43,562 nt of DNA from an uncultured Gammaproteobacteria bacterium (GTDB taxonomy: Bacteria > Pseudomonadota > Gammaproteobacteria > Magnimaribacterales > TMED112): NCBI GenBank assembly GCA_913020145.1, contig CAJWAI010000006.1:1-43562 (forward strand), in the 5' to 3' direction. The position numbers were made by a program, and so were the translations under genes. Numbering within the stretch: position 1 is the first letter of the stretch; each line of letters begins with the position of its first letter. Shown one piece after another: positions 25,564 to 43,496 of this stretch. The notes beneath the pieces are model-generated. The model made no database searches and was not told the origin of the DNA. It saw only the letters and a program-made list of their open reading frames with translations.

Positions 25564-26848
25564 TATTTATCTTATCTAAAACCTTTATTGCAGTTTTAGC
25601 CGCTTTTACTAGTTTATCCTCATTATGCTCTGTTGAAATAAAACAACTTTCATAGGCTGAAGGAGGAAGATAAATATTTTCTTCCAACATGCCGCGAAAA
25701 AACTTTTTAAAAAGCTCAATATTTGAATTTTCGACATCACTAAAATTCATAGGAAGGTTTTTACTAAAGAAAAAACCAAACATACCACCTCTTACATTAA
25801 ACGAAAATGGTATTTTATTTTGATCACAATAGTCCTTTACTATTTGCAAGAAAACGTGAGCATTTTCTTCAAGTTTTCTGTAGATATTTTGGTCATTAAG
25901 CTGCTTAAGTAACGCTGTACCTGCACTAACTGCAATAGGATTACCAGATAAAGTGCCTGCTTGATAAATAGGTCCATCTGGAGCGATATTATCCATAATT
26001 TCTTTCTTGCCACCATATACTCCTACTGGTAAGCCACCGCCAACAATTTTTCCTAAGGCAGTTAAATCCGGATTTATATTAAATAATTCTTGTGCTCCTC
26101 CTCTTGCAACACGGAACCCTGTCATTACTTCGTCAAAGATTAATATTGAATTATTTTCTGTGCAGATTTGTCTTAATTCTTTAAGAAAATCTTCACTAGG
26201 TTCAATAAATCCCATATTTCCAGCTATCGGTTCAACAATGACAGCAGCAATATCTTGCGCATGACTATTAAAAGCCTCTTTTAATGCATTTATATCGTTG
26301 TATGGAATAGTGATAGTAAGTTTAGATAGTTCTTCTGGAATTCCTGGAGAGTCTGGTACTCCAAGTGTTGCTAGACCGGAACCAGCTTTAACTAAAAGAG
26401 AGTCTACATGACCATGATAACAACCAATAAATTTTATAATGATATTTCTTTTTGTTGTTCCTCTTGCCAATCTTATGCAGCTCATCGTTGCTTCAGTGCC
26501 AGAATTGACCATTCTGAGTTTTTCTATGCTTGGAACATATGACTTTATAAGTTTTGCAATTTCTAATTCATTTTTTGTTGGTGCTCCAAAGCTTATACCC
26601 TTACTAGATTGCTTTTTTATAGCATCTGCAATTTTTTTATTGGAATGACCTAGAATCATTGGCCCCCAAGAACCTACAAAATCTAGATATTTATTGCCAT
26701 CTTCATCATATAGGTAACAACCTCTAGATTTTCTAAAGAAAATTGGCGAACCTCCTACACTTTTAAATGCTCTTACAGGAGAATTTACACCGCCAGCTAT
26801 ATGATTCTTAGATTTTTCAAAAAGTTTTTCAGAGTTTTTAGTTTTCAT
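25553..26848 (-). CDS. hemL: Glutamate-1-semialdehyde 2,1-aminomutase
   Basis: HemL makes 5-aminolevulinate from glutamate-1-semialdehyde, the start of C5 haem synthesis. The 431-residue PLP enzyme shows GGVNSPVRAFKSVGG, MVNSGTEATMSCIRLARG, FDEVMTGFRV and the cofactor lysine in LTALGKIVGGGLPVG. Length is typical. It overlaps thiE by 11 nt upstream; a thiE-hemL pair is common in gammaproteobacteria. Confidence 0.97.
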   Translation of the reverse strand: MKTKNSEKLFEKSKNHIAGGVNSPVRAFKSVGGSPIFFRKSRGCYLYDEDGNKYLDFVGSWGPMILGHSNKKIADAIKKQSSKGISFGAPTKNELEIAKLIKSYVPSIEKLRMVNSGTEATMSCIRLARGTTKRNIIIKFIGCYHGHVDSLLVKAGSGLATLGVPDSPGIPEELSKLTITIPYNDINALKEAFNSHAQDIAAVIVEPIAGNMGFIEPSEDFLKELRQICTENNSILIFDEVMTGFRVARGGAQELFNINPDLTALGKIVGGGLPVGVYGGKKEIMDNIAPDGPIYQAGTLSGNPIAVSAGTALLKQLNDQNIYRKLEENAHVFLQIVKDYCDQNKIPFSFNVRGGMFGFFFSKNLPMNFSDVENSNIELFKKFFRGMLEENIYLPPSAYESCFISTEHNEDKLVKAAKTAIKVLDKINNEV

Positions 26849-27467
26849 TCCAGATTTCTATCAGTTTTCGGCAGTTTACTTCAATTTTTTTGAGATCATT
26901 ATAGATGCCATCACAAATAGCTGCCATATTAAATTTATTTTGTTTTACTAATCTTAGATTTATTTCACTTATTCCACCAATCGCGATATTTATTTTTTCT
27001 TTATCCATTTTTGATGAAACATCAACAATATCTATAGGCCCGGTTATATTTTTTTTAGTTTTTGATTCAAATAAAGGGCCAAATGAGTAATATGAAAATA
27101 ACTCTGAATCTTCCCTTGCTTGTTGTTCTGGCTTATTTTTGCAGCTTAAGCCAACAAAACTGATATTCTTAGTTTCTTTTAAAAAGCTTGTATCTTCAAT
27201 ATCTTGTCCTATATGCAAACCACACCCAATTAATTCAGCAACCCTATGATCATTATTTATTACCAGAGTTGCACTCCATTTATTACATATGGTTTGAATC
27301 TCTTTTGCCGTCTCGTACCTTTCCTCAAAATTAATTTCATCTTCAAATCGATATTGAATTAATCTTATTTCTGATTCTAATGTTCGCTCAACAGCATCAA
27401 GAAGTTCATTTTTATGAATATATGTTGGAGTAATAGCGTAAATGGGCGATTCGATTTTTTTGAACAT
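26838..27467 (-). CDS. thiE: Thiamine-phosphate synthase-like protein
   Basis: ThiE couples the thiazole and pyrimidine halves of thiamine. The 209-residue TIM barrel shows IRLIQYR, ATLVINNDHRVAELIGCGLHIGQD (usual NDR...DGVHLGQ), YSFGPLFESKTKKNITGP (usual GPIFPTxTK) and INIAIGGISEIN. The similarity is clear but several ligand positions differ, so a TenI-type regulatory or altered activity is possible. It overlaps hemL and follows hemG by 17 nt. Confidence 0.8.
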   Translation of the reverse strand: MFKKIESPIYAITPTYIHKNELLDAVERTLESEIRLIQYRFEDEINFEERYETAKEIQTICNKWSATLVINNDHRVAELIGCGLHIGQDIEDTSFLKETKNISFVGLSCKNKPEQQAREDSELFSYYSFGPLFESKTKKNITGPIDIVDVSSKMDKEKINIAIGGISEINLRLVKQNKFNMAAICDGIYNDLKKIEVNCRKLIEIWNEN

Positions 27468-33154: not shown

Positions 33155-33166
33155 TTTAGGATGGAT

Positions 33167-34726
33167 ATGAGAAGTTTTAGTTTAATTTTTTTTAGTCTAC
33201 TAAGTCTTTTAGTCTTCTCACATGATAATTGGAAAGCCACAAAGTTATCCGAAGAAATTGCTCATGCTCCCTCGGTTTTGCCAGACAGAGTTGTACTTAC
33301 ATGGAACGATAATCCTGCTATAACTCAGTCAGTTACTTGGAGAACTAATACATCTGTAATTAATGGTTTTGCTCAATTTGCAGTTGCAAATGCAAATGGT
33401 AGGACGTTAAAACCAACGGAATTGAAAGCAATAACATCTCATTTCAAAAGTGATATCAATGAAGCACATTACCATAATGTTACTTTTACCAATCTTGAAC
33501 CTAATACTTTATATGCATATCGAGTAGGCGATGGAGAAAACTGGACCGAATATTATCATTTTAAAACCGCAAGTCTAGAACCTGAACCATTTAGTTTTAT
33601 TTACTTCGGTGATGCGCAAAATGAGGTAAAAACTCATTGGTCAAGGGTATTCAGGGAAGCATTTCGAGATGCTCCAAGGGCAGCATTTACTCTTCATGCT
33701 GGAGATCTTGTTGATGAACGTTATATGGATGCTGAATGGGGAGAATGGCATCAAGGCCCTGACTGGGTTAATGGCACAATACCTGTAATAGCTACTCCAG
33801 GAAATCATGAATACTTAAATGTTTCTGAGTACAAAAGAATATGGAAAAATAAGAGCGGGAAAGATATAAATATTGATGTTGAATCATATACACCAGATAC
33901 ATCAGGCTTGTTGAAGTTAGTTATTAAGGACTCTAATGATCAAAACGGTTCTTTATTAGTGCAACCAGACGGCAAAATTCACTCAATTGATTCAGGCATT
34001 GAACTAATAACTGGTTTTTCAGAAGAAGAATTAAAAGACAAGATGATTTTAGGTGGAAAGGCTCCATTATATGATCGTCTCCAAAACCCTAATGGAGGAC
34101 CAACTTTAACCGCTCATTGGCGCACTCAATTTTCTTTTCCAGTTCAAGATGTGCCAAATGATAGCTTAAATGAGACTGTTTATTATATTGATTATCAAGG
34201 TGTAAGATTTATCTCATTAGATTCCAATATTAGTCAAGAAGAGCAAGTTCCATGGCTTGAAAAGGTATTGGAACAAAATCCTCATGATTGGACAGTTATA
34301 ACTTTCCATCATCCTTTGTATTCACCAGCATCAAGTCGAGACAATCTAGAATTAAGACAAGTTTGGAAACCTCTTTTTGATAAATACAGAGTAGATTTAA
34401 TTCTAAGTGGACATGATCACGCTTATTCAAGAACAGGTCTTGTTGATACAAATAGTCTCAAAAATATACCTACAGGTTATGAGCAGGCTTATGAACCTGA
34501 AATTGGCACTGTAAACGTTGTATCAGTTAGCGGTCCAAAACTATATGAAATAACAAAAGATAAATACGCCAAAACCTTTATTGAGAATAAGCAGCTGTAC
34601 CAAATAATTGATATTGAAGGTAACGAACTTAGGTTTAGATCTTTCGATGCAACGGGTGAACTGCACGATGAATTTATACTTAAGAAAAACGCAGGAAAAC
34701 CTAATCTTCTTATTGAAAATAATTAA
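33167..34726 (+). CDS. Exported purple-acid-phosphatase-like metallophosphoesterase
   Basis: The ORF-track start lies inside the tRNA; the ATG at 33167 has AGGA 5 nt upstream and begins a signal peptide (MRSFSLIFFSLLSLLVFS), giving 519 aa. An Fn3-like purple acid phosphatase N-domain (PAITQSVTWRTN) precedes the metallophosphatase core: FGDA (D149), HAGDLVDE (D180), PGNHEY (N213, H214), ITFHHPLY and LSGHDHAYSR. The Tyr of the purple GDxxY motif is Asp here. Residues about 245-315 form an insertion with a PAS-like stretch (IDSGIELITGFSEEEL). It should release phosphate from organic esters in the periplasm. Confidence 0.88.
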   Translation: MRSFSLIFFSLLSLLVFSHDNWKATKLSEEIAHAPSVLPDRVVLTWNDNPAITQSVTWRTNTSVINGFAQFAVANANGRTLKPTELKAITSHFKSDINEAHYHNVTFTNLEPNTLYAYRVGDGENWTEYYHFKTASLEPEPFSFIYFGDAQNEVKTHWSRVFREAFRDAPRAAFTLHAGDLVDERYMDAEWGEWHQGPDWVNGTIPVIATPGNHEYLNVSEYKRIWKNKSGKDINIDVESYTPDTSGLLKLVIKDSNDQNGSLLVQPDGKIHSIDSGIELITGFSEEELKDKMILGGKAPLYDRLQNPNGGPTLTAHWRTQFSFPVQDVPNDSLNETVYYIDYQGVRFISLDSNISQEEQVPWLEKVLEQNPHDWTVITFHHPLYSPASSRDNLELRQVWKPLFDKYRVDLILSGHDHAYSRTGLVDTNSLKNIPTGYEQAYEPEIGTVNVVSVSGPKLYEITKDKYAKTFIENKQLYQIIDIEGNELRFRSFDATGELHDEFILKKNAGKPNLLIENN

Positions 34727-35280: not shown

Positions 35281-35559
35281 ATGAGAACTGTGAAAGGTAA
35301 AAATTTATATCTAGCTTTATTAAGCTTATTTTTTATAAGTGTAATATCTTTAGATCCATTAAGTCATAAAGAAGACTTTCATGATGTTGAATTAGATTTC
35401 GAATGCACCTTTTGTTTAAATGAGACTGAAGCTACTGATCAATTACAGACAAATTACTCCTTAATTACTTTTACCTTTCAAGAAAGAACCCTTAAAGAAT
35501 ATATTCATATAAGAGAAGCTTTTTCTAGCTTTTCTGCAAGGGACCCACCTAAATCCTAA
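35281..35559 (+). CDS. Small exported CxxC protein upstream of a zinc-receptor-like gene
   Basis: A 92-residue protein with a signal/membrane segment (YLALLSLFFISVIS), then acidic/His residues (SHKEDFHDVELDFECTFC) around a C42-x-x-C45 pair and a C-terminus ending FSARDPPKS. This layout (His/acidic, CxxC, terminal R-x-PP) resembles small DUF2946-like periplasmic proteins often found beside metal-linked TonB receptors. I read it as a possible metal-binding accessory of the adjacent receptor. Function is not established; similarity is by pattern only. Confidence 0.65.
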   Translation: MRTVKGKNLYLALLSLFFISVISLDPLSHKEDFHDVELDFECTFCLNETEATDQLQTNYSLITFTFQERTLKEYIHIREAFSSFSARDPPKS

Positions 35560-35600: not shown

Positions 35601-37823
35601 ATGAAAAAACAATTATTAATTTTATTCTTATTCTTGGGCTTTATTAATGCTCAAGACGTAGAAGAGGTTGTAGTAACATCCTCTCTTACAGATCAAACCC
35701 AAATTGATAATCCAGTGCATGTTGTTAGTAAAGAAGATCTAGCAAATGATGCTTCAGTTAGTCTTGGAGAAGCATTGGATAATCTTTTAGGTGTTTCAAA
35801 CGCTGATTTTGGATCTGCAATTGGGCAGCCAATTATCAGAGGTATGTCTGGATCAAGAGTTAAGGTATTGAGTAATGGCATGGTAGTTAGAGATGTTTCT
35901 ACCTTAGGGCCTGATCATCCTAATAATATTGATCTAAGTAATGCTGAGCAAGTTGAGGTTGTTAGAGGACCTTCATCACTGCTTTACTCGAATGGTACTA
36001 TCGGTGGAATAATTAATGTAGTTGACAATACAATTGCAAAAACTGATTTCACTGGAACATCAGGTAACTTTAGTCATGAGTTGCAAGAAGCAAATGACGG
36101 CGAAGTAACTACTTTCAATATGCAGACAAATCAATCTGGCCTAAATATTAGTTTTGGTTTATCAGAAGCAGTTTTCGACAGTTATGAAATTCCTGGTGGT
36201 TCTATTGTTCATGATGATGAACATGAAGAAGAAGGACATGAAGAAGGTGATATGACTGTTCTAGCAAATTCAGACTATGAAACTAATAATGCCAGATTTG
36301 GTGTTTCGACAACTGGGGATTGGGGCCATGTAGGTTTCTCTTTAGTTAGTAGAGAAGGTACAAATGGTATTCCTTATCATGGAGAAGGTCATGGTGGACA
36401 TGATGAACACGGTGATGAAGATGGCGATGAAGATCATGATGAAGATCATGAAGATGAAGGACATGATGAGCATGAAGGCGAAAGAATTTTTGCTGACAAT
36501 ACATCTGATGTTTTCACTCTCGAAGGCTCATATAACCTTAATGGTGAGCTTGTGAAAGGCATCGATTTCTTTATGAGATCCTCTGATTACTCATTAACTG
36601 AGCAGCATGCTGAAGAAGAGCATCATGATGACGAACATCATGATGATGAGGAGCATGATGAAGATGAGCATGATGAAGAAGGTCATGAAGAAGGCCCAAC
36701 TACTTTTGAAAATGAGGCAACAGAATTCGGAGTGGTTTTAGACATTTCTAATGATAATTTAAATCAGAAAGTTGCTTTTAATTTTGCTGAAGAAGATATG
36801 TCTATTATTGGTGAAGAAGCTTTTATGAATCCAGTAAACAGCGAAGAGTTCACAGTAGGGTATTACCTAAATACAAAACTCGGTGAATTTGACGTAGATT
36901 TTGGAGTTCGTTTAGACGACATTACTAGAAATGGTTCAGTTGCTGAAGAGCATCATGATGAAGATGAGGGAGAAGAACATGAAGAAGAAGTTGAATCTTA
37001 TGACTTGAATTTCTCAACTCAAAGTTATGCAGTGCAGTTCTCACAAGATTGGACAGACAACCTTGCTGTAAGTGTTGCTCTGTCAAATGTTGAAAGAGCA
37101 CCTGGAGCACAAGAACTATTTATGAATGGACCACATTTGGTTACTAATAGATTTGAAGTAGGAGATGTAAATCTAGGCACTGAAGTCTCAAATAATGTTG
37201 ATTTTACAATGAATTATGAGAATGATGGTGCTTTTGCAAGTGCTAGTTTCTATGCAAATGCTGTCGATAATTACATTTATCTTATGGATGAATCAGAAGC
37301 AGATCATGAAGATCATGAAGATGAAGATCATGAAGAGCATCATGGAGATATGATAAGAGCTAATTATCTTCAGCAAGATGCAGAATTTAATGGTTATGAA
37401 CTTCTTGTTGGTAGAACTATTGCACTTCCTAATGGAAGTCTAACAGTTTCTCTAGGACAAGATTCTGTAATTGGTAAATTCAATGCTGATAGTGCTGATG
37501 AGTCTTATGTTCCAAGACTCACACCAAAAAGAACGTTTATAGATGTTGACTATAGTTCTGCAGATTATTCCGCAGGCATCTCATTTAAAGACGTTAAACC
37601 GCAATATAAAACAGCTATGGAAGAATCTTCAACAGAAGGTTTTATGTTAGTTGATATGAAAGTTGCTAAGGAATTTGCGCTGTCACCAGACGTAGGAATG
37701 ACAGTTTCATTTTTTGCTAAGAATCTTATGGATGAAAGAGCAAGAAATCACACTTCCTTCGTGAAGAATCAAGTTCCGCTTGCTGGTAGAAATATTGGCT
37801 TCAAATTTAATATAACTTTTTAA
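35601..37823 (+). CDS. ZnuD-like TonB-dependent receptor with five His/Asp/Glu-rich clusters
   Basis: An outer-membrane receptor of 740 aa: signal peptide, TonB-box-like DVEEVVVTSS, plug domain (PIIRGMSGSRVKVLSNG, VEVVRGPSSLLYSNGTIGGIINVVD), then a 22-strand barrel ending in GFKFNITF. Five extracellular-loop-like clusters of His, Asp and Glu occur at residues 204-217, 260-294, 336-365, 449-463 and 567-583, with about 27 His. Such loops and the plug type are typical of ZnuD-like zinc receptors. Copper or nickel is an alternative ligand. A small CxxC protein precedes it, and a hairpin terminator follows. Confidence 0.88.
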   Translation: MKKQLLILFLFLGFINAQDVEEVVVTSSLTDQTQIDNPVHVVSKEDLANDASVSLGEALDNLLGVSNADFGSAIGQPIIRGMSGSRVKVLSNGMVVRDVSTLGPDHPNNIDLSNAEQVEVVRGPSSLLYSNGTIGGIINVVDNTIAKTDFTGTSGNFSHELQEANDGEVTTFNMQTNQSGLNISFGLSEAVFDSYEIPGGSIVHDDEHEEEGHEEGDMTVLANSDYETNNARFGVSTTGDWGHVGFSLVSREGTNGIPYHGEGHGGHDEHGDEDGDEDHDEDHEDEGHDEHEGERIFADNTSDVFTLEGSYNLNGELVKGIDFFMRSSDYSLTEQHAEEEHHDDEHHDDEEHDEDEHDEEGHEEGPTTFENEATEFGVVLDISNDNLNQKVAFNFAEEDMSIIGEEAFMNPVNSEEFTVGYYLNTKLGEFDVDFGVRLDDITRNGSVAEEHHDEDEGEEHEEEVESYDLNFSTQSYAVQFSQDWTDNLAVSVALSNVERAPGAQELFMNGPHLVTNRFEVGDVNLGTEVSNNVDFTMNYENDGAFASASFYANAVDNYIYLMDESEADHEDHEDEDHEEHHGDMIRANYLQQDAEFNGYELLVGRTIALPNGSLTVSLGQDSVIGKFNADSADESYVPRLTPKRTFIDVDYSSADYSAGISFKDVKPQYKTAMEESSTEGFMLVDMKVAKEFALSPDVGMTVSFFAKNLMDERARNHTSFVKNQVPLAGRNIGFKFNITF

Positions 37824-37839
37824 TATTATTTCCTGATTT

Positions 37840-37861
37840 AACTAGGGCTTCGGCCCTAGTT
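37840..37861 (+). terminator. Hairpin terminator with TTCG loop
   Basis: A perfect 9-bp stem AACTAGGGC / GCCCTAGTT closed by a TTCG tetraloop, 17 bp after the receptor stop. It is the only GC-rich hairpin found between genes in this window. The following T-tract is weak (TATTAGGTT), so termination may be partial or the hairpin may protect the mRNA 3' end. Confidence 0.7.
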
Positions 37862-37868
37862 ATTAGGT

Positions 37869-37874
37869 TATAAT
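37869..37874 (+). promoter_or_regulatory. Putative -10 box of the receptor-phosphatase-carrier operon
   Basis: TATAAT exactly 8 nt before the ATG at 37883, and directly after the terminator hairpin. No Shine-Dalgarno sequence is present, so a leaderless mRNA is predicted. The -35 position falls inside the hairpin and is poor. Confidence 0.45.
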
Positions 37875-37882
37875 TAACCCAA

Positions 37883-40480
37883 ATGCATGTAAGGGTTTTT
37901 TTACTTTTATTTTTCTCTATATTTGTCGTAACTCAAGAAGTAGAAGAGGTAATAACGACAGGATCTTTAATAAAAGATATAGAAGTAGATTCTTCCCCTG
38001 TTGAACTTATCACAAAAAACGATTTTGATAATCTTAATATCAATAGCGTTGCAGAAATTAGCAAATACTTAACCAGTTCATCAGGCTCTCATTTTCAAAC
38101 GAATGCATTAGATGGTGTAGACCAGGGCATGTCAAATATAACTCTTAGAGGCCTTGATCATGCTTCTACGCTAGTTTTAATTAATTCTAAAAGACACACT
38201 TTTTCTGGAACCACATCACAAGAAGGTGAAGGTTACATTGATACCAATATTATTCCTGTTATAGCTTTTGAAAAAGTTGAAATCTTAAAAGAAGGAGCAA
38301 CATCTTTGTATGGCTCTGATGCGGTAGCTGGAGTAATTAACTTTTTTACTTATAAAGACTTTGAGGGTTTTAAATTAAAGTTTGGTGAGCAAGGCACTAC
38401 TAACTATGATAGCAAAGAGACGAATGTAGGATTCTTATATGGCGCAAAAAATTGGAACACTAATTTAGTAATAGCTTATGATCAGCTTGAGAAAAAACCA
38501 CTTTCTGCAAATGAGATACCTAGAATTGCTGAGTTAGGCTTAAGTCTTTTAGGTAACAGTTTTATTGTTTCAGCGGACGATGAAATTGATGAAGGTTTAT
38601 ATGCTGGAACTTACATAGAAGGTCAAATAGTACCAGATCCCAATTGTGCAGAAAATGGTGGTAGATTGTCTGGTGGATTTTGTAGATTTTTGTATGGAAC
38701 AAGATTCAACATTGTTAATGATGAAGATCATCAAAAATTCTATTTTAGTTTATCTAATAAGTATCATGAACTTACAGCTATATCATCCAATATTAAGGTA
38801 AATGATAATCCTCAATCACCTTCCTATCCGGCCCTTTCCTTTCTAACTAGATCAATACAGCCAGGGGAGGCAGGTAGTCCATTTAATGTACCAGTTAGAT
38901 GGTATGGACGTCCTTTAGGAGGATTATTTCCTTCTCCATTGTCTCCAAAAGATATTACTCAACATCATATAAATTACACATATACAAACATTATTGATGA
39001 TTATGATATTGAATTTTCTATAACTAATAGTGAGCATGAGAATGTACACAATAGGCCAGATTTTGTTAACTCAAGATTCTTGGATGCTATTCAAGGTAAT
39101 GGCGGACCAAATGGCAACTTATTTTGGAATGTTTTTAATCCAAGAGAGAATAGCAGAGAGTTAACAAACTATTTGCAAGGTGCAGAAAAATCAAACAAGA
39201 AGGGCGGATTAACAACCTTAGATTTTCTTGCCAGTTCTAAATATTCTGAGATATCTTTCGTAGTTGGTGCTCAAATAAGCAATGAACAACTAAATGTCGT
39301 ATTTAATGAGCTTGCACAGGTTGAATACGATAATGATGGAAAACTAACAAAAACTGCAGACCTATTCTTTCTTGGTGGCGGTCGGAACATATCTAAAAGC
39401 AGAGATAAATTTGCATTATTTATTGAAGCAGAAAGAGAATTTTTTGATGTGTTAGATTTAAGGTTAGCAATGCGATATGAGGACTATAGTAATGATTCTT
39501 CATTTGACCCCAAGCTTTCACTAAAGTATCAACCTAATGAAAAAATTTCTCTAAGAGCTTCACGAGGAACTTCGTTTAGCATGCCATCTATGGCGCAGAT
39601 GTTCCCAAGTGACGTAAATCTAGGAAGCGTTTCAGATGGCGATAATGGTGGAGTATATGTAAGACAAGCTAAATTAGGTAACCCAGACCTCAAGCCAGGC
39701 ATATCTACTAATAGTAATTTTGGTTTTATTTTTAATGATGATATTCAAAAATTTACTCTAGATTATTGGAAGATTGATTTTGAGGATCGAATAGTTCTGC
39801 AAAGTCCACAAGCACTATTGGATCAGGATCCAAATGGTTCAAGTATTACGCGAAATGATATTGGAGATCTAATTGGAATAACCACAACCTATTTTAATGA
39901 AGAATCTACAATGGTTAGCGGTATAGATTTTGAATATAAAAGATTCTTTGATTTAAAGAACTATGGAGAATTAGATTTCACAATAAGAGGGACCAATTTA
40001 ATTGAGTTTTTAACTCCAGACCGTAACGACATTACTTGCTTAGCTTTGGATTGCTTACAATTAATTGATCGTGTAGGTAAATTTAATTTTGACGCTCATA
40101 CTCATGCCTTGCCAGAAAATCGCATTAATACTTTCATAAATTGGAAATTTAATAATTATATTTTCGGCATAAATACTAGATATATCGATGGTTATAAGAA
40201 TAACAAACCCATTCCACAGGCATCTATTGATAGAGGTTATAGTAATGAAATTGACTCATCACTTTTATTTGATTTGTCTGTAGATTTGCCTTTATCAGAT
40301 TTATTTAGGATCAACACAATCGATGGCGATTATGAATTAAAAACTAACTTTGCAATAATTAATTTATTTGATGAAGATGCTCCAAGATTATATGATGCAC
40401 CTGACTTTAGTTTTGATACTAGAGTACATGACCCAAGAGGCAGAATGTTAAGTATTCAATTTGAAATAGCTAGAAAATGA
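37883..40480 (+). CDS. TonB-dependent receptor, substrate unknown
   Basis: An 865-residue outer-membrane receptor: signal peptide (VFLLLFFSIFVV), N-terminal EVEEVITTGSLIKD TonB-box region, plug with ITLRGLDHASTLVLINSKR and EKVEILKEGATSLYGSDAVAGVINFFT, and a barrel ending in FEIARK. Paired cysteines (PNCAENGGRLSGGFC and CLALDC) probably form loop disulphides. It belongs to the large GS-type receptors common in heterotrophic marine bacteria. It overlaps the phosphatase gene by ATGA, which suggests a phosphorylated organic substrate. Confidence 0.92.
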   Translation: MHVRVFLLLFFSIFVVTQEVEEVITTGSLIKDIEVDSSPVELITKNDFDNLNINSVAEISKYLTSSSGSHFQTNALDGVDQGMSNITLRGLDHASTLVLINSKRHTFSGTTSQEGEGYIDTNIIPVIAFEKVEILKEGATSLYGSDAVAGVINFFTYKDFEGFKLKFGEQGTTNYDSKETNVGFLYGAKNWNTNLVIAYDQLEKKPLSANEIPRIAELGLSLLGNSFIVSADDEIDEGLYAGTYIEGQIVPDPNCAENGGRLSGGFCRFLYGTRFNIVNDEDHQKFYFSLSNKYHELTAISSNIKVNDNPQSPSYPALSFLTRSIQPGEAGSPFNVPVRWYGRPLGGLFPSPLSPKDITQHHINYTYTNIIDDYDIEFSITNSEHENVHNRPDFVNSRFLDAIQGNGGPNGNLFWNVFNPRENSRELTNYLQGAEKSNKKGGLTTLDFLASSKYSEISFVVGAQISNEQLNVVFNELAQVEYDNDGKLTKTADLFFLGGGRNISKSRDKFALFIEAEREFFDVLDLRLAMRYEDYSNDSSFDPKLSLKYQPNEKISLRASRGTSFSMPSMAQMFPSDVNLGSVSDGDNGGVYVRQAKLGNPDLKPGISTNSNFGFIFNDDIQKFTLDYWKIDFEDRIVLQSPQALLDQDPNGSSITRNDIGDLIGITTTYFNEESTMVSGIDFEYKRFFDLKNYGELDFTIRGTNLIEFLTPDRNDITCLALDCLQLIDRVGKFNFDAHTHALPENRINTFINWKFNNYIFGINTRYIDGYKNNKPIPQASIDRGYSNEIDSSLLFDLSVDLPLSDLFRINTIDGDYELKTNFAIINLFDEDAPRLYDAPDFSFDTRVHDPRGRMLSIQFEIARK

Positions 40481-41292
40481 AGAATTTTTTTAAATGTTTT
40501 TTTCTCTTCTTTAGTACTTTGATTTCCGCTGAAATTAAAGAACATCAAGGTATACTTGCTACCCTTTATGTACAAGATTCTGCTGAATATTATGCTAACT
40601 CGATCAACGTATATAGATCTGCAATTGATAAGCTTCCCTCAGTTCTATCTGATAACAAAATTTCAGCTGCAATCGAGCAAACTGAAGGTTTTCAAGATAA
40701 ACCTCCTGCCGTAATTTTAGATGTAGACCAAACTGTCCTTGATAACATTGCCTACCAAGCAAGGCTAATTAAAACTAGAACTTACTATCCAGAGGGATGG
40801 GATGCATGGTGTATGGAAGAACAAGCAGACTATATACCTGGTGTGAAAGATTTCTTAGATTATGCAACTGAATTAGGAGTTGCAATATTCTTTGTTACGA
40901 ACAGAACAGCAAACGTAGAAGAAGCTACAAAAAACAATCTTGAAAAACTAGGCTTTATTTTTAAAGAGGATAGAGATCAACTTTTAATGAAGGGAGAAAA
41001 AGGTTGGGGATCAAATAAAAATTCAAGAAGAGCTTTAATTGCTGAAGACTACAGGATAGTAATGATGTTTGGGGATAATCTTGGAGATTTTGTTGATGGC
41101 AGTGATAACAAAAATTCTTCAGACCATAGAATGACAGTTACTAAAAAATATAAAGAAATGTGGGGCCAATATTGGTTTATGCTACCGAACCCTAATTATG
41201 GTGACTGGGAAAATTCTGTAATCAATTTTAAATATAGCATTCCAAAAGACGAACAGCTTCAGATTAAAATAGATGCTTTAGATACAAAATGA
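40477..41292 (+). CDS. Class C acid phosphatase / e(P4)-like 5'-nucleotidase
   Basis: A 271-residue HAD phosphatase of the class C e(P4) family. Motif I is VILDVDQTVLDN (usual D-D-E-TVLDN; the Glu is Gln here), with ARTYYP-like region KTRTYYPEGWDAW, motif II FFVTNRTA and motif IV MMFGDNLGDF. e(P4) enzymes remove phosphate from NMN and nucleoside monophosphates in the periplasm. It has a signal peptide (FFLFFSTLISA) but no lipobox, unlike the classical lipoprotein. ATGA overlaps on both sides fix it between receptor and carrier. Confidence 0.85.
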   Translation: MKNFFKCFFLFFSTLISAEIKEHQGILATLYVQDSAEYYANSINVYRSAIDKLPSVLSDNKISAAIEQTEGFQDKPPAVILDVDQTVLDNIAYQARLIKTRTYYPEGWDAWCMEEQADYIPGVKDFLDYATELGVAIFFVTNRTANVEEATKNNLEKLGFIFKEDRDQLLMKGEKGWGSNKNSRRALIAEDYRIVMMFGDNLGDFVDGSDNKNSSDHRMTVTKKYKEMWGQYWFMLPNPNYGDWENSVINFKYSIPKDEQLQIKIDALDTK

Positions 41293-42563
41293 AGTCATCA
41301 TTAAAATATTTCGATAGAAATACTATATTCTCAGGGCTATTCTTTTTCTTTGTACTCTTTTCACTATTCATAATGCGACCATTTAGAGGCGCAATTACAG
41401 CACAAATTGGAACAGCAGACTTAACTTATTTTTTATTTATTGTTGTTTTAGTTATGTTATTCGCCAATCAGATTTATTCTGTTTTGGTCTCGAGAATTAA
41501 AGAATCACGACTAGTAGCCTATGTCTATGGTTTTTTCATAGTTAACCTGCTCATATATGCTGGCCTGAATTATTATTTGCCAGAAAGCTATGTTTTAGGA
41601 GCTAGTTTTTATGTTTGGTATAACATATTTAATTTCTTCATAGTTTCAGTCTTTTGGGCACGAACAGTTAATTCTTTTAACTATAAAGAAGGTAAAAAAT
41701 ATTTTGGAATAATAAGTGCATTTGGTTCATTGGGGGCCTGGGTTGCTACACAGACTGTTTTATTGTTTTTATCGGATAAATTCTTCCTTGCCATGATTTT
41801 AGGATGTCTAAGCCTTATGTTAGCTATTTATTTTTCTACAAAAACATCATTATCTAGTAGAAGTTTAATCCAAGAAAGAAAAGATTCTTTCTTCCGAGAT
41901 TTAACAGAACAATTTAGACAAATTAAATCAAATCCTTTAGTCAGACAATTGTTGTCTTATGTTTTTATCTGGACTTGTTTATCTACAGCTCTTTACTTTT
42001 TTAGTATAGAAATAGTGAGTAGCGTGAGTTCAGACCGAGTAGTACAAACACAACTTTTTGCTCAAGCTGATGCTATAGCTATTCCATTGACTCTTTTTAC
42101 TCAGATATTCTTAACTAGATTCTTGTTGCAGAGTAAATTTTTTGGAATTAGTTTCGTGCTTATCTTCTATGGAGCAATATACGGAATAGGCTTTATTTTA
42201 ATGTTTGGATATTTTTCTGGATTATTCTTAGCTAGTTCAGGCGCTTTACTATTTCTAATTATTCAAGCTTTAGTTCGACCTTACGAGTATGCAATCAACA
42301 AACCTGCTAGAGAGGCTGTTTATACTACACTAAAGAAATCTGAAAAATATAAGTCAACAGTGTTTATTGATACTTTTATGAACAGATTCGGGGATGCATC
42401 AGGAGGTTTGTTATTTAACTCTTTATTATTCATAGGACTTTCTATATCCATTGCTCCACTAGCTATAATCCCGCTTGCAATTTACTTATCGACAGTTGGT
42501 AATGGAATTGCTCAAGGTATCAATAAAGCAAAATCTTTCACAATTTTTACAAAAAAATCTTGA
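41289..42563 (+). CDS. ATP/ADP translocase (NTT)-like MFS carrier
   Basis: A 424-residue inner-membrane protein with about 12 predicted hydrophobic segments. The N-terminal IMRPFRGAITAQIG and the C-terminal NKPAREAVYTTLKKSEKYK then IDTFMNRFGDASGG match the nucleotide transporter family first known from obligate intracellular bacteria (kPARE...Y..eKYK..fiD...R.GD). Free-living homologues are of unknown substrate and belong to a broader MFS group. Joined by ATGA to the phosphatase, it may import the dephosphorylated product or a nucleotide. Confidence 0.75.
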   Translation: MKSSLKYFDRNTIFSGLFFFFVLFSLFIMRPFRGAITAQIGTADLTYFLFIVVLVMLFANQIYSVLVSRIKESRLVAYVYGFFIVNLLIYAGLNYYLPESYVLGASFYVWYNIFNFFIVSVFWARTVNSFNYKEGKKYFGIISAFGSLGAWVATQTVLLFLSDKFFLAMILGCLSLMLAIYFSTKTSLSSRSLIQERKDSFFRDLTEQFRQIKSNPLVRQLLSYVFIWTCLSTALYFFSIEIVSSVSSDRVVQTQLFAQADAIAIPLTLFTQIFLTRFLLQSKFFGISFVLIFYGAIYGIGFILMFGYFSGLFLASSGALLFLIIQALVRPYEYAINKPAREAVYTTLKKSEKYKSTVFIDTFMNRFGDASGGLLFNSLLFIGLSISIAPLAIIPLAIYLSTVGNGIAQGINKAKSFTIFTKKS

Positions 42564-42603: not shown

Positions 42604-43008
42604 ATGCTTACAAAACAAAAAATAATAAAAGCTCCTAAAAAGAATTACATGAATAAGGAGCAACTGGAATTCTTCCAAAGTCATCTTGTAGATCTTAAGA
42701 AAGAAACTTTAACTCGTATTGGAGATGCTAAAGAAAGATTAAGCAACCCTCCATCATTGAGCGATGAAGTAGATAGAGCTCAACATGAAATTGACTCAAT
42801 GTTATTTTTAAAAATAGTTGAAAGAGAATCAAAGTTACTTCCAAAGATTGATAAAGCTATTTTGAGAATTAAAGCAGGTGACTATGGTTATTGCGTTGAG
42901 ACTGGAGAGCCAATCGGTATAGAAAGGTTAATATCAAGACCTACAGCTGAGTTCTGCGCAGAAGTTAAAACTGTAAACGAAGAAAAAGAAAAGCATTTCA
43001 TCGATTAA
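42604..43008 (+). CDS. dksA: DksA-like regulator with incomplete zinc finger
   Basis: The start at 42604 gives 134 aa; the track's earlier start lies inside the carrier gene. The coiled-coil tip is SDEVDRAQHE, keeping the DxxDxA type acidic residues (D54, D57). The zinc finger is C97-V-E-T100 and C118-A-E-V121, so two of the four cysteines are missing, as in the zinc-independent DksA2 paralogue of Pseudomonas. Residues equivalent to the ppGpp site 2 of E. coli DksA appear retained (K81, R112, K122). DksA adjusts RNA polymerase at stringent promoters. Confidence 0.88.
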   Translation: MLTKQKIIKAPKKNYMNKEQLEFFQSHLVDLKKETLTRIGDAKERLSNPPSLSDEVDRAQHEIDSMLFLKIVERESKLLPKIDKAILRIKAGDYGYCVETGEPIGIERLISRPTAEFCAEVKTVNEEKEKHFID

Positions 43009-43058: not shown

Positions 43059-43496
43059 ATGAGTTTATTTAATAAAGCAGTTGGCTCAATTTCAGAAACC
43101 AGGATGGGGGTCTTGTCTGAATGGTCATTAAGATTAGCGTTAGCATTCTTATTTTTTAACCATGGACTACCAAAAATAGAAGCACTTATTTCAGCTCCAG
43201 GTGAACCCTTCTCTTACATATTGCCAATGACTTTTTTTGGTGATTTTGCATTAATTTCTAGTTATTTGGTCACTATTTCAGAGCTAGTTTTGATCCCTTT
43301 ATTTATCATTATTGGTGGATTTAGTTTAATCGGATCAAATGCTAAAGCAATTTCTACTTTAGGTGGATTAATTGGTGTTTGCACTATGCTAATAATAATT
43401 TTCTTTTTCCATTTTGGTGTAAAGGAAGAGGGCATATTAGAGGTAAAATATCAATTATCACTTTTAGCTATGTCACTCTACTTTTTGTTTAAGTAG
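43059..43496 (+). CDS. DoxX-like membrane protein
   Basis: A 145-residue integral membrane protein with four hydrophobic segments. The first segment LRLALAFLFFNHGLPKIE fits the DoxX pattern (R...G..F..HG..K). DoxX proteins are involved in redox or thiol-stress functions in some bacteria, but no specific role can be assigned. It is separated by 50 bp from dksA and lies just before a tRNA-Ala. Confidence 0.72.
   Translation: MSLFNKAVGSISETRMGVLSEWSLRLALAFLFFNHGLPKIEALISAPGEPFSYILPMTFFGDFALISSYLVTISELVLIPLFIIIGGFSLIGSNAKAISTLGGLIGVCTMLIIIFFFHFGVKEEGILEVKYQLSLLAMSLYFLFK

Follow-up and report, generated by a model that had tools for sequence, protein, structure and literature searches.

A conserved operon of a TonB-dependent receptor, an e(P4)-like phosphatase and an NTT-like carrier in SAR86 bacteria, a candidate uptake module for nucleotide-like compounds

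In Haemophilus species that require nicotinamide adenine dinucleotide (NAD), the class C acid phosphatase e(P4) and NadN produce nicotinamide riboside (NR) for import (PMC10694654), and in the complex of e(P4) with nicotinamide mononucleotide (NMN) the base is stacked between Phe86 and Tyr221, with Trp91 nearby (PMC3498132). Enzymes of the e(P4) type take many nucleotides (PMC8475336). Some transporters of the NTT (ATP/ADP-translocase) family carry NAD, and distant NTTs are known in free-living bacteria (PMC5381601). Here we analyzed an operon of a SAR86 genome in which an e(P4)-like phosphatase is encoded together with a TonB-dependent receptor and an NTT-like carrier. It occupies positions 37883 to 42563 of contig CAJWAI010000006.1 (GenBank assembly GCA_913020145.1), and the whole stretch that was analyzed, 43,562 nucleotides of the forward strand, is referred to as the window. 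SAR86 are very small free-living marine bacteria, among the most abundant of the surface ocean. We interpret the operon tentatively, at slightly less than an even chance, as a module that captures, dephosphorylates and imports compounds resembling 5'-nucleotides, nicotinamide nucleotides most likely among them. The three genes are:

37883..40480, forward strand: TonB-dependent receptor (TBDR2), 865 amino acids; Pfam Plug 5.5e-12, TonB barrel 2.8e-30
40477..41292, forward strand: class C (e(P4)-like) acid phosphatase (PHOS), 271 amino acids; signal peptide, no lipobox; PF03767 7.5e-43
41289..42563, forward strand: NTT (ATP/ADP-translocase)-like carrier of the major facilitator fold (CARR), 424 amino acids; 12 long helices

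An original prediction, made from the letters of the window, had joined these genes through two ATGA overlaps, had assigned their products to these three families and had placed them in the outer membrane, periplasm and inner membrane. The coordinates and both junctions, each a 4-base overlap reading ATGA, were confirmed, the families proved correctly named by Pfam, profile and fold comparisons, and the distribution over three compartments is supported. At the receptor junction the ATGA overlap is found only in the closest relatives of the window, G010 and G019, with gaps of about −23 to +49 bases elsewhere.

Conservation was analyzed in a sample of 61 genomes, many of them incomplete metagenome-assembled genomes (MAGs), which includes the SAR86 families f1 (the genus of the window, 21 genomes, of which G007 and G012 are single contigs), f3 (7 genomes) and f2 and f4 (13 genomes together). 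The window finds its best relatives among SAR86 or gammaproteobacterial MAGs and belongs to GTDB TMED112 / CHAB-I-7; TMED112-A1 (CP097968.1) is a member of its genus. The GTDB family TMED112, called CHAB-I-7, has the smallest genomes within SAR86, and f1 and f3 are sister families (PMC11582366). From the same carrier neighborhood in SAR86A, we infer that f3 is the Suzuki/D2472 family.

The carrier is present in 50 of the 61 genomes. Of these, 20 belong to the genus of the window, and each of the 20 has the phosphatase 5' of the carrier on the same strand, either directly or, in six of them, with a PhoA-type phosphatase (Alk_phosphatase 6.6e-76) in between; in two of these six a small opposite-strand open reading frame (ORF) follows PhoA. 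TBDR2 lies 5' of the phosphatase in 19 of the 20. G004, the only f1 genome without the carrier, is missing the phosphatase as well. Other flanking genes change, yet phosphatase and carrier retain their order down to about 51% carrier identity, so the adjacency is not due to chance. It was not found in the genomes examined outside the genus, where the carriers adjoin TolB-Pal-CpoB (f3), Rieske ferredoxin and enoyl-CoA hydratase (f2), a Rieske oxygenase (Rieske oxygenase/GST; f4) or the oxoprolinase PxpABC (Woeseia-like carriers). In the carrier tree, a long branch with full support separates the subfamily of the genus from the f2, f3 and Woeseia carriers. Given these differing neighbors and the split of the carrier subfamily, the module is an assembly peculiar to this lineage rather than a widespread system. 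The co-occurrence of the three families, named as a check in the original prediction, therefore holds within the genus, where adjacency is the rule, and fails outside the family.

The phosphatase scores 147 bits against PF03767 (gathering cut-off 27) and narrowly misses the curated e(P4) equivalog TIGR01533 (lipo_e_P4; 206.2 bits, cut-off 216.05), and is therefore named e(P4)-like rather than e(P4). Its relatives in the PDB are 2i33, 3pct and the e(P4) entries 3et4/3ocu. Among 12 homologues, the DDDD catalytic aspartates (D82, D84, D200 and D204) are invariant, as is an aromatic box of Tyr104, Trp108 and Tyr241 that aligns with Phe86, Trp91 and Tyr221 of e(P4), the Phe to Tyr change being conservative. 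This retention of the e(P4) NMN-binding box is suggestive of a role with nicotinamide nucleotides. No lipobox was found in 18 members, which have an ordinary signal-like N-terminus. At the f3 loci L181–L184, the class C enzyme forms a pair with a PhoA-type phosphatase, and the next gene is of the inositol-phosphatase family.

The carrier by itself gave no match in Pfam or NCBIfam and no phmmer match in the PDB; the gathering score of Pfam TLC was not reached by CARR, and no TLC match was found in the window genome. A profile built from 34 carrier relatives matches the chloroplast AtNTT1 (9j3j, 8.9e-11) and the chlamydial NTT1 (9j3n, 8.8e-6); eight of the 34 match TLC themselves (best 1.2e-4) and 29 match MFS_1. 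The AlphaFold model of CARR (predicted local distance difference test (pLDDT) 90.6, predicted template modeling score (pTM) 0.89) has 12 long helices, and a Foldseek search with it placed NTT structures at PDB ranks 1–4, followed by LacY and others. Structural alignment with the NTTs gives about 15% identity and shows a common C-terminal motif region, in which REAVYTTLKK-SEKYKS is aligned with KEMAYIPLDEDTKVKGK. The carrier is thus NTT-like by family profile and predicted fold. Of the two transport proteins, whose modeling the original prediction had suggested, only the carrier yielded a confident model; that of TBDR2 (pLDDT 55) was too poor for a fold search. TBDR2 is 53–97% identical across 15 members, and its sequence matches are receptors of the CirA, FepA and BtuB types, which are uninformative on the ligand. 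A relationship of TBDR2 to the thiamine receptors was considered and rejected, since the two have no significant similarity.

The genomic context that may connect the phosphatase to NAD is the loss of biosynthetic genes. NadE is found in none of the 28 f1 and f3 genomes and in 13/13 of f2 and f4, and NadC in none of the 28 versus 10/13, where absence means no match above cut-off and controls were positive. The class C phosphatase has the opposite distribution: 20/21 f1 genomes and 7/7 of f3 encode it, as against 0/13 of f2 and f4, where G041 gave one weak partial match. Despite the many incomplete MAGs, the distribution of these genes is uniform. Ordinary-sized NadD-like proteins were seen only in f2 and f4. 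The f1 and f3 genomes encode instead a protein of roughly 375 amino acids that ends in an NMNAT/cytidylyltransferase-like domain and whose N-terminus matches CinA weakly (best 1.7e-4, below cut-off); the clade of the window retains only the nucleotidyltransferase part. Copies lie at:

L237:4137-5276, roughly 375 amino acid nucleotidyltransferase protein
L240:4045-5178, roughly 375 amino acid nucleotidyltransferase protein
L241:3964-4551, copy of G000

Judged by this gene content, two of the four SAR86 families, f1 and f3, seem to lack the capacity to synthesize NAD through nicotinic acid mononucleotide (NaMN) and nicotinic acid adenine dinucleotide (NaAD).

We propose that TBDR2 would serve as the entry through the outer membrane for NMN, for nucleotides derived from NAD(P) or for related ones; that the e(P4)-type phosphatase would strip the 5'-phosphate in the periplasm, with help from the PhoA-type phosphatase in some relatives; and that the NTT-like carrier would import either the dephosphorylated product or a remaining nucleotide. 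Salvage of this kind could feed NAD synthesis in a lineage without NadC and NadE, which has the unusual NMN-adenylyltransferase-like protein in place of an ordinary NadD, and a nicotinamide riboside kinase would be needed. A capture, dephosphorylate and import logic was already the suggestion of the original prediction, by analogy with the conversion of NMN by e(P4) in Haemophilus. The retained aromatic box, together with the confinement of the phosphatase to SAR86 families in which NadC and NadE are missing, speaks for the idea of NMN.

Several observations weigh against this proposal, the carrier being its weakest link. Known NTTs move phosphorylated substrates, and if CARR does likewise, a phosphatase beside it is odd. 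Carriers are present in f2 and in three f4 genomes that keep NadE, and since they thus occur in relatives that make NAD, the substrate of the carrier is not tied to NAD; in the carrier tree, moreover, the f4 and OM182-like carriers are nested inside the f1-type clade. In f3, the class C phosphatase has no adjoining carrier or receptor, and the carrier lies far away. Because f1 and f3 are sister families, the matching distributions of the phosphatase and the NAD genes amount to one evolutionary event and are suggestive only, and a Fisher value calculated for them does not count as independent evidence. Because e(P4)-type enzymes take many nucleotides, the aromatic box does not single out NMN. 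A single search, made with PF13521 and not extended to NadV, NadN or NR kinases of other kinds, gave no NadR-type NR kinase; the matches that were inspected read as thymidylate kinases. The receptor is also not constant, TBDR2 being replaced in G001 by a TBDR1-type (ZnuD-like) receptor and a MerC-like protein, and a thiamine operon lies 5' of the module in at least nine relatives.

The surrounding genes and elements of the window are as follows:

26838-27467, reverse strand: ThiE-like gene
33164-34726, forward strand: purple-acid-phosphatase-like protein, N-terminal domain and metallophosphatase
35281-35559, forward strand: 92-amino acid ORF preceding TBDR1; C-terminal R[AD]PP kept in relatives; no Pfam match
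35601-37823, forward strand: TBDR1, a His/Glu/Asp-rich TonB receptor; ZnuD model match 2e-69, below cut-off
37845..37875, forward strand: G+C-rich hairpin ctagggcttcggccctag followed by ttataat, between TBDR1 and TBDR2, read by eye
42649..43008, forward strand: DksA-like protein (DksA2-like); DksA_N 2.5e-12, zf-dskA_traR 2.3e-08
43059..43496, forward strand: DoxX-like small membrane protein; PF07681 6.1e-4, below cut-off

The operon probably extends into the DksA-like and DoxX-like genes, whose position and order after the carrier nearly all relatives share. The start of the DksA-like gene at 42649 was chosen by comparison with relatives, in which the gene lies 17–81 bases from the carrier; the DoxX-like gene is usually next, and the order is kept in most same-genus genomes. 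In the DksA-like protein CxxT-x17-CxxV replaces the four cysteines, so that two of four are kept in 18/18 members, with Ser at the second position in a few; the zinc-independent DksA2 of Pseudomonas aeruginosa carries CxxT-x17-CxxA (PMC8456098). At the other end, the hairpin and ttataat, kept in G010 and G019, form a possible terminator and promoter; a consensus promoter and terminator scan did not detect the hairpin element and gave fewer promoter-like sites than in shuffled sequence. No riboswitch was found in the window, the sole Rfam match being a tRNA, the score of a Zur-like box upstream was below chance, and inspection by eye of the regions upstream of TBDR1 and TBDR2 revealed no common palindrome. 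MerC-family proteins are encoded in the TBDR1 region of relatives and near the carrier at loci L089 and L100, and a metal-uptake theme may overlap this region. The purple-acid-phosphatase-like gene is found 5' of the thiamine operon as well, in G002, G005, G006 and G013.

A broader function would be the scavenging of dissolved nucleotides and organic phosphate, with the phosphatases freeing phosphate and nucleosides for phosphorus, nitrogen and nucleoside salvage and the carrier taking up nucleosides or nucleotides with no special link to NAD. The PhoA-type enzyme in six relatives and at the majority of the f3 loci examined, the purple-acid-phosphatase-like gene 5' in the window and several relatives, the deoxynucleoside kinase encoded in the window and the activity of class C enzymes on many nucleotides all fit such a function, which we nonetheless consider fairly unlikely: essentially all sampled f2 and f4 bacteria lack the class C phosphatase, apart from the weak match in G041, even though they too are marine plankton, and the presence of the enzyme tracks the loss of NAD genes instead. 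Alternatively, the three genes might share a transcript without sharing a pathway, a streamlined genome having packed the receptor, the phosphatase and an unrelated carrier together. This is unlikely, given that the order survives to about 51% carrier identity despite changing flanks, but it would agree with the variety of genes that adjoin carriers elsewhere (TolB-Pal-CpoB, Rieske/enoyl-CoA hydratase, Rieske oxygenase/GST and PxpABC), with the distance between the phosphatase pair and the carrier in f3, with the retention of DksA and DoxX in the same array and with the frequency of gene overlaps in small genomes.

The nearby thiamine genes raise the further alternative that the phosphatase turns thiamine monophosphate (TMP) or thiamine pyrophosphate (TPP) into thiamine within a vitamin B1 uptake region. 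In at least nine same-genus genomes an operon headed by a TPP riboswitch and encoding a receptor, a PnuC-family protein and a member of the APH/choline-kinase family (weak ThiK match, 2.2e-10) lies directly 5' on the same strand, and ThiC is absent from 21/21 f1 genomes. ThiE and the TPP-riboswitch/PnuC operon are mutually exclusive, found in 9 and 12 genomes with no overlap (G018 is counted by PnuC and G020 by its riboswitch), and, judged by gene content, are two alternative vitamin B1 strategies in these ThiC-less bacteria. The window genome is of the ThiE type and contains no TPP riboswitch. The module is present in genomes of both types, including eight of the nine ThiE-like genomes without PnuC and riboswitch, that of the window among them, and so does not follow the thiamine strategy; in addition, the thiamine operon occurs without a class C phosphatase in most f2 genomes. 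A function with thiamine phosphates therefore appears quite improbable. The window genome and nine others of the 21 have no PnuC, and where PnuC is present it stands behind the TPP riboswitch in nearly all; it was rejected as a nicotinamide partner, since it follows a thiamine riboswitch.

We thus return to the uptake of 5'-nucleotide-like compounds as the preferred interpretation. A stronger version, a previously undescribed three-compartment system dedicated to NAD precursors, with the NTT-like carrier in place of PnuC, in NAD-auxotrophic free-living marine bacteria, we regard as rather doubtful; if correct, this subfamily of NTT-like carriers would have its first substrate. If NAD salvage is indeed what the operon serves, seawater would hold a vitamin-like currency in the form of NAD precursors, and a testable function would be at hand for a large orphan group of NTT-like carriers in free-living bacteria. 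Among the papers searched, none mentions SAR86 together with nicotinamide riboside. The operon would represent an e(P4)-type salvage logic to which a receptor and an NTT-like carrier are joined.

Compared with V-factor salvage in Haemophilus influenzae (e(P4)/Hel, NadN, PnuC and NadR), the SAR86 locus has in common the phosphatase with an NMN box, a lineage without NadC and NadE and the proposed capture, dephosphorylate and import logic. Unlike in H. influenzae, the phosphatase has no lipobox and shares an operon with a TonB receptor and an NTT-like carrier, PnuC is missing from the window genome and stands under a TPP riboswitch in relatives, and one search gave no NadR-type kinase. The TPP-riboswitch thiamine uptake operon (receptor, PnuT and thiamine kinase) resembles the module in its layout of receptor and inner-membrane carrier and is its same-strand neighbor in part of the genus, but the module has a different receptor, a different carrier and no riboswitch, and the thiamine operon is absent from the window genome. 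With the NTT/TLC transporters (AtNTT1 and chlamydial NTT1, and PamNTT4 for NAD), CARR shares its predicted fold and the C-terminal motif region; it differs from them in having no Pfam TLC match, in the structural-alignment identity of about 15% and in being coupled to a receptor and a phosphatase.

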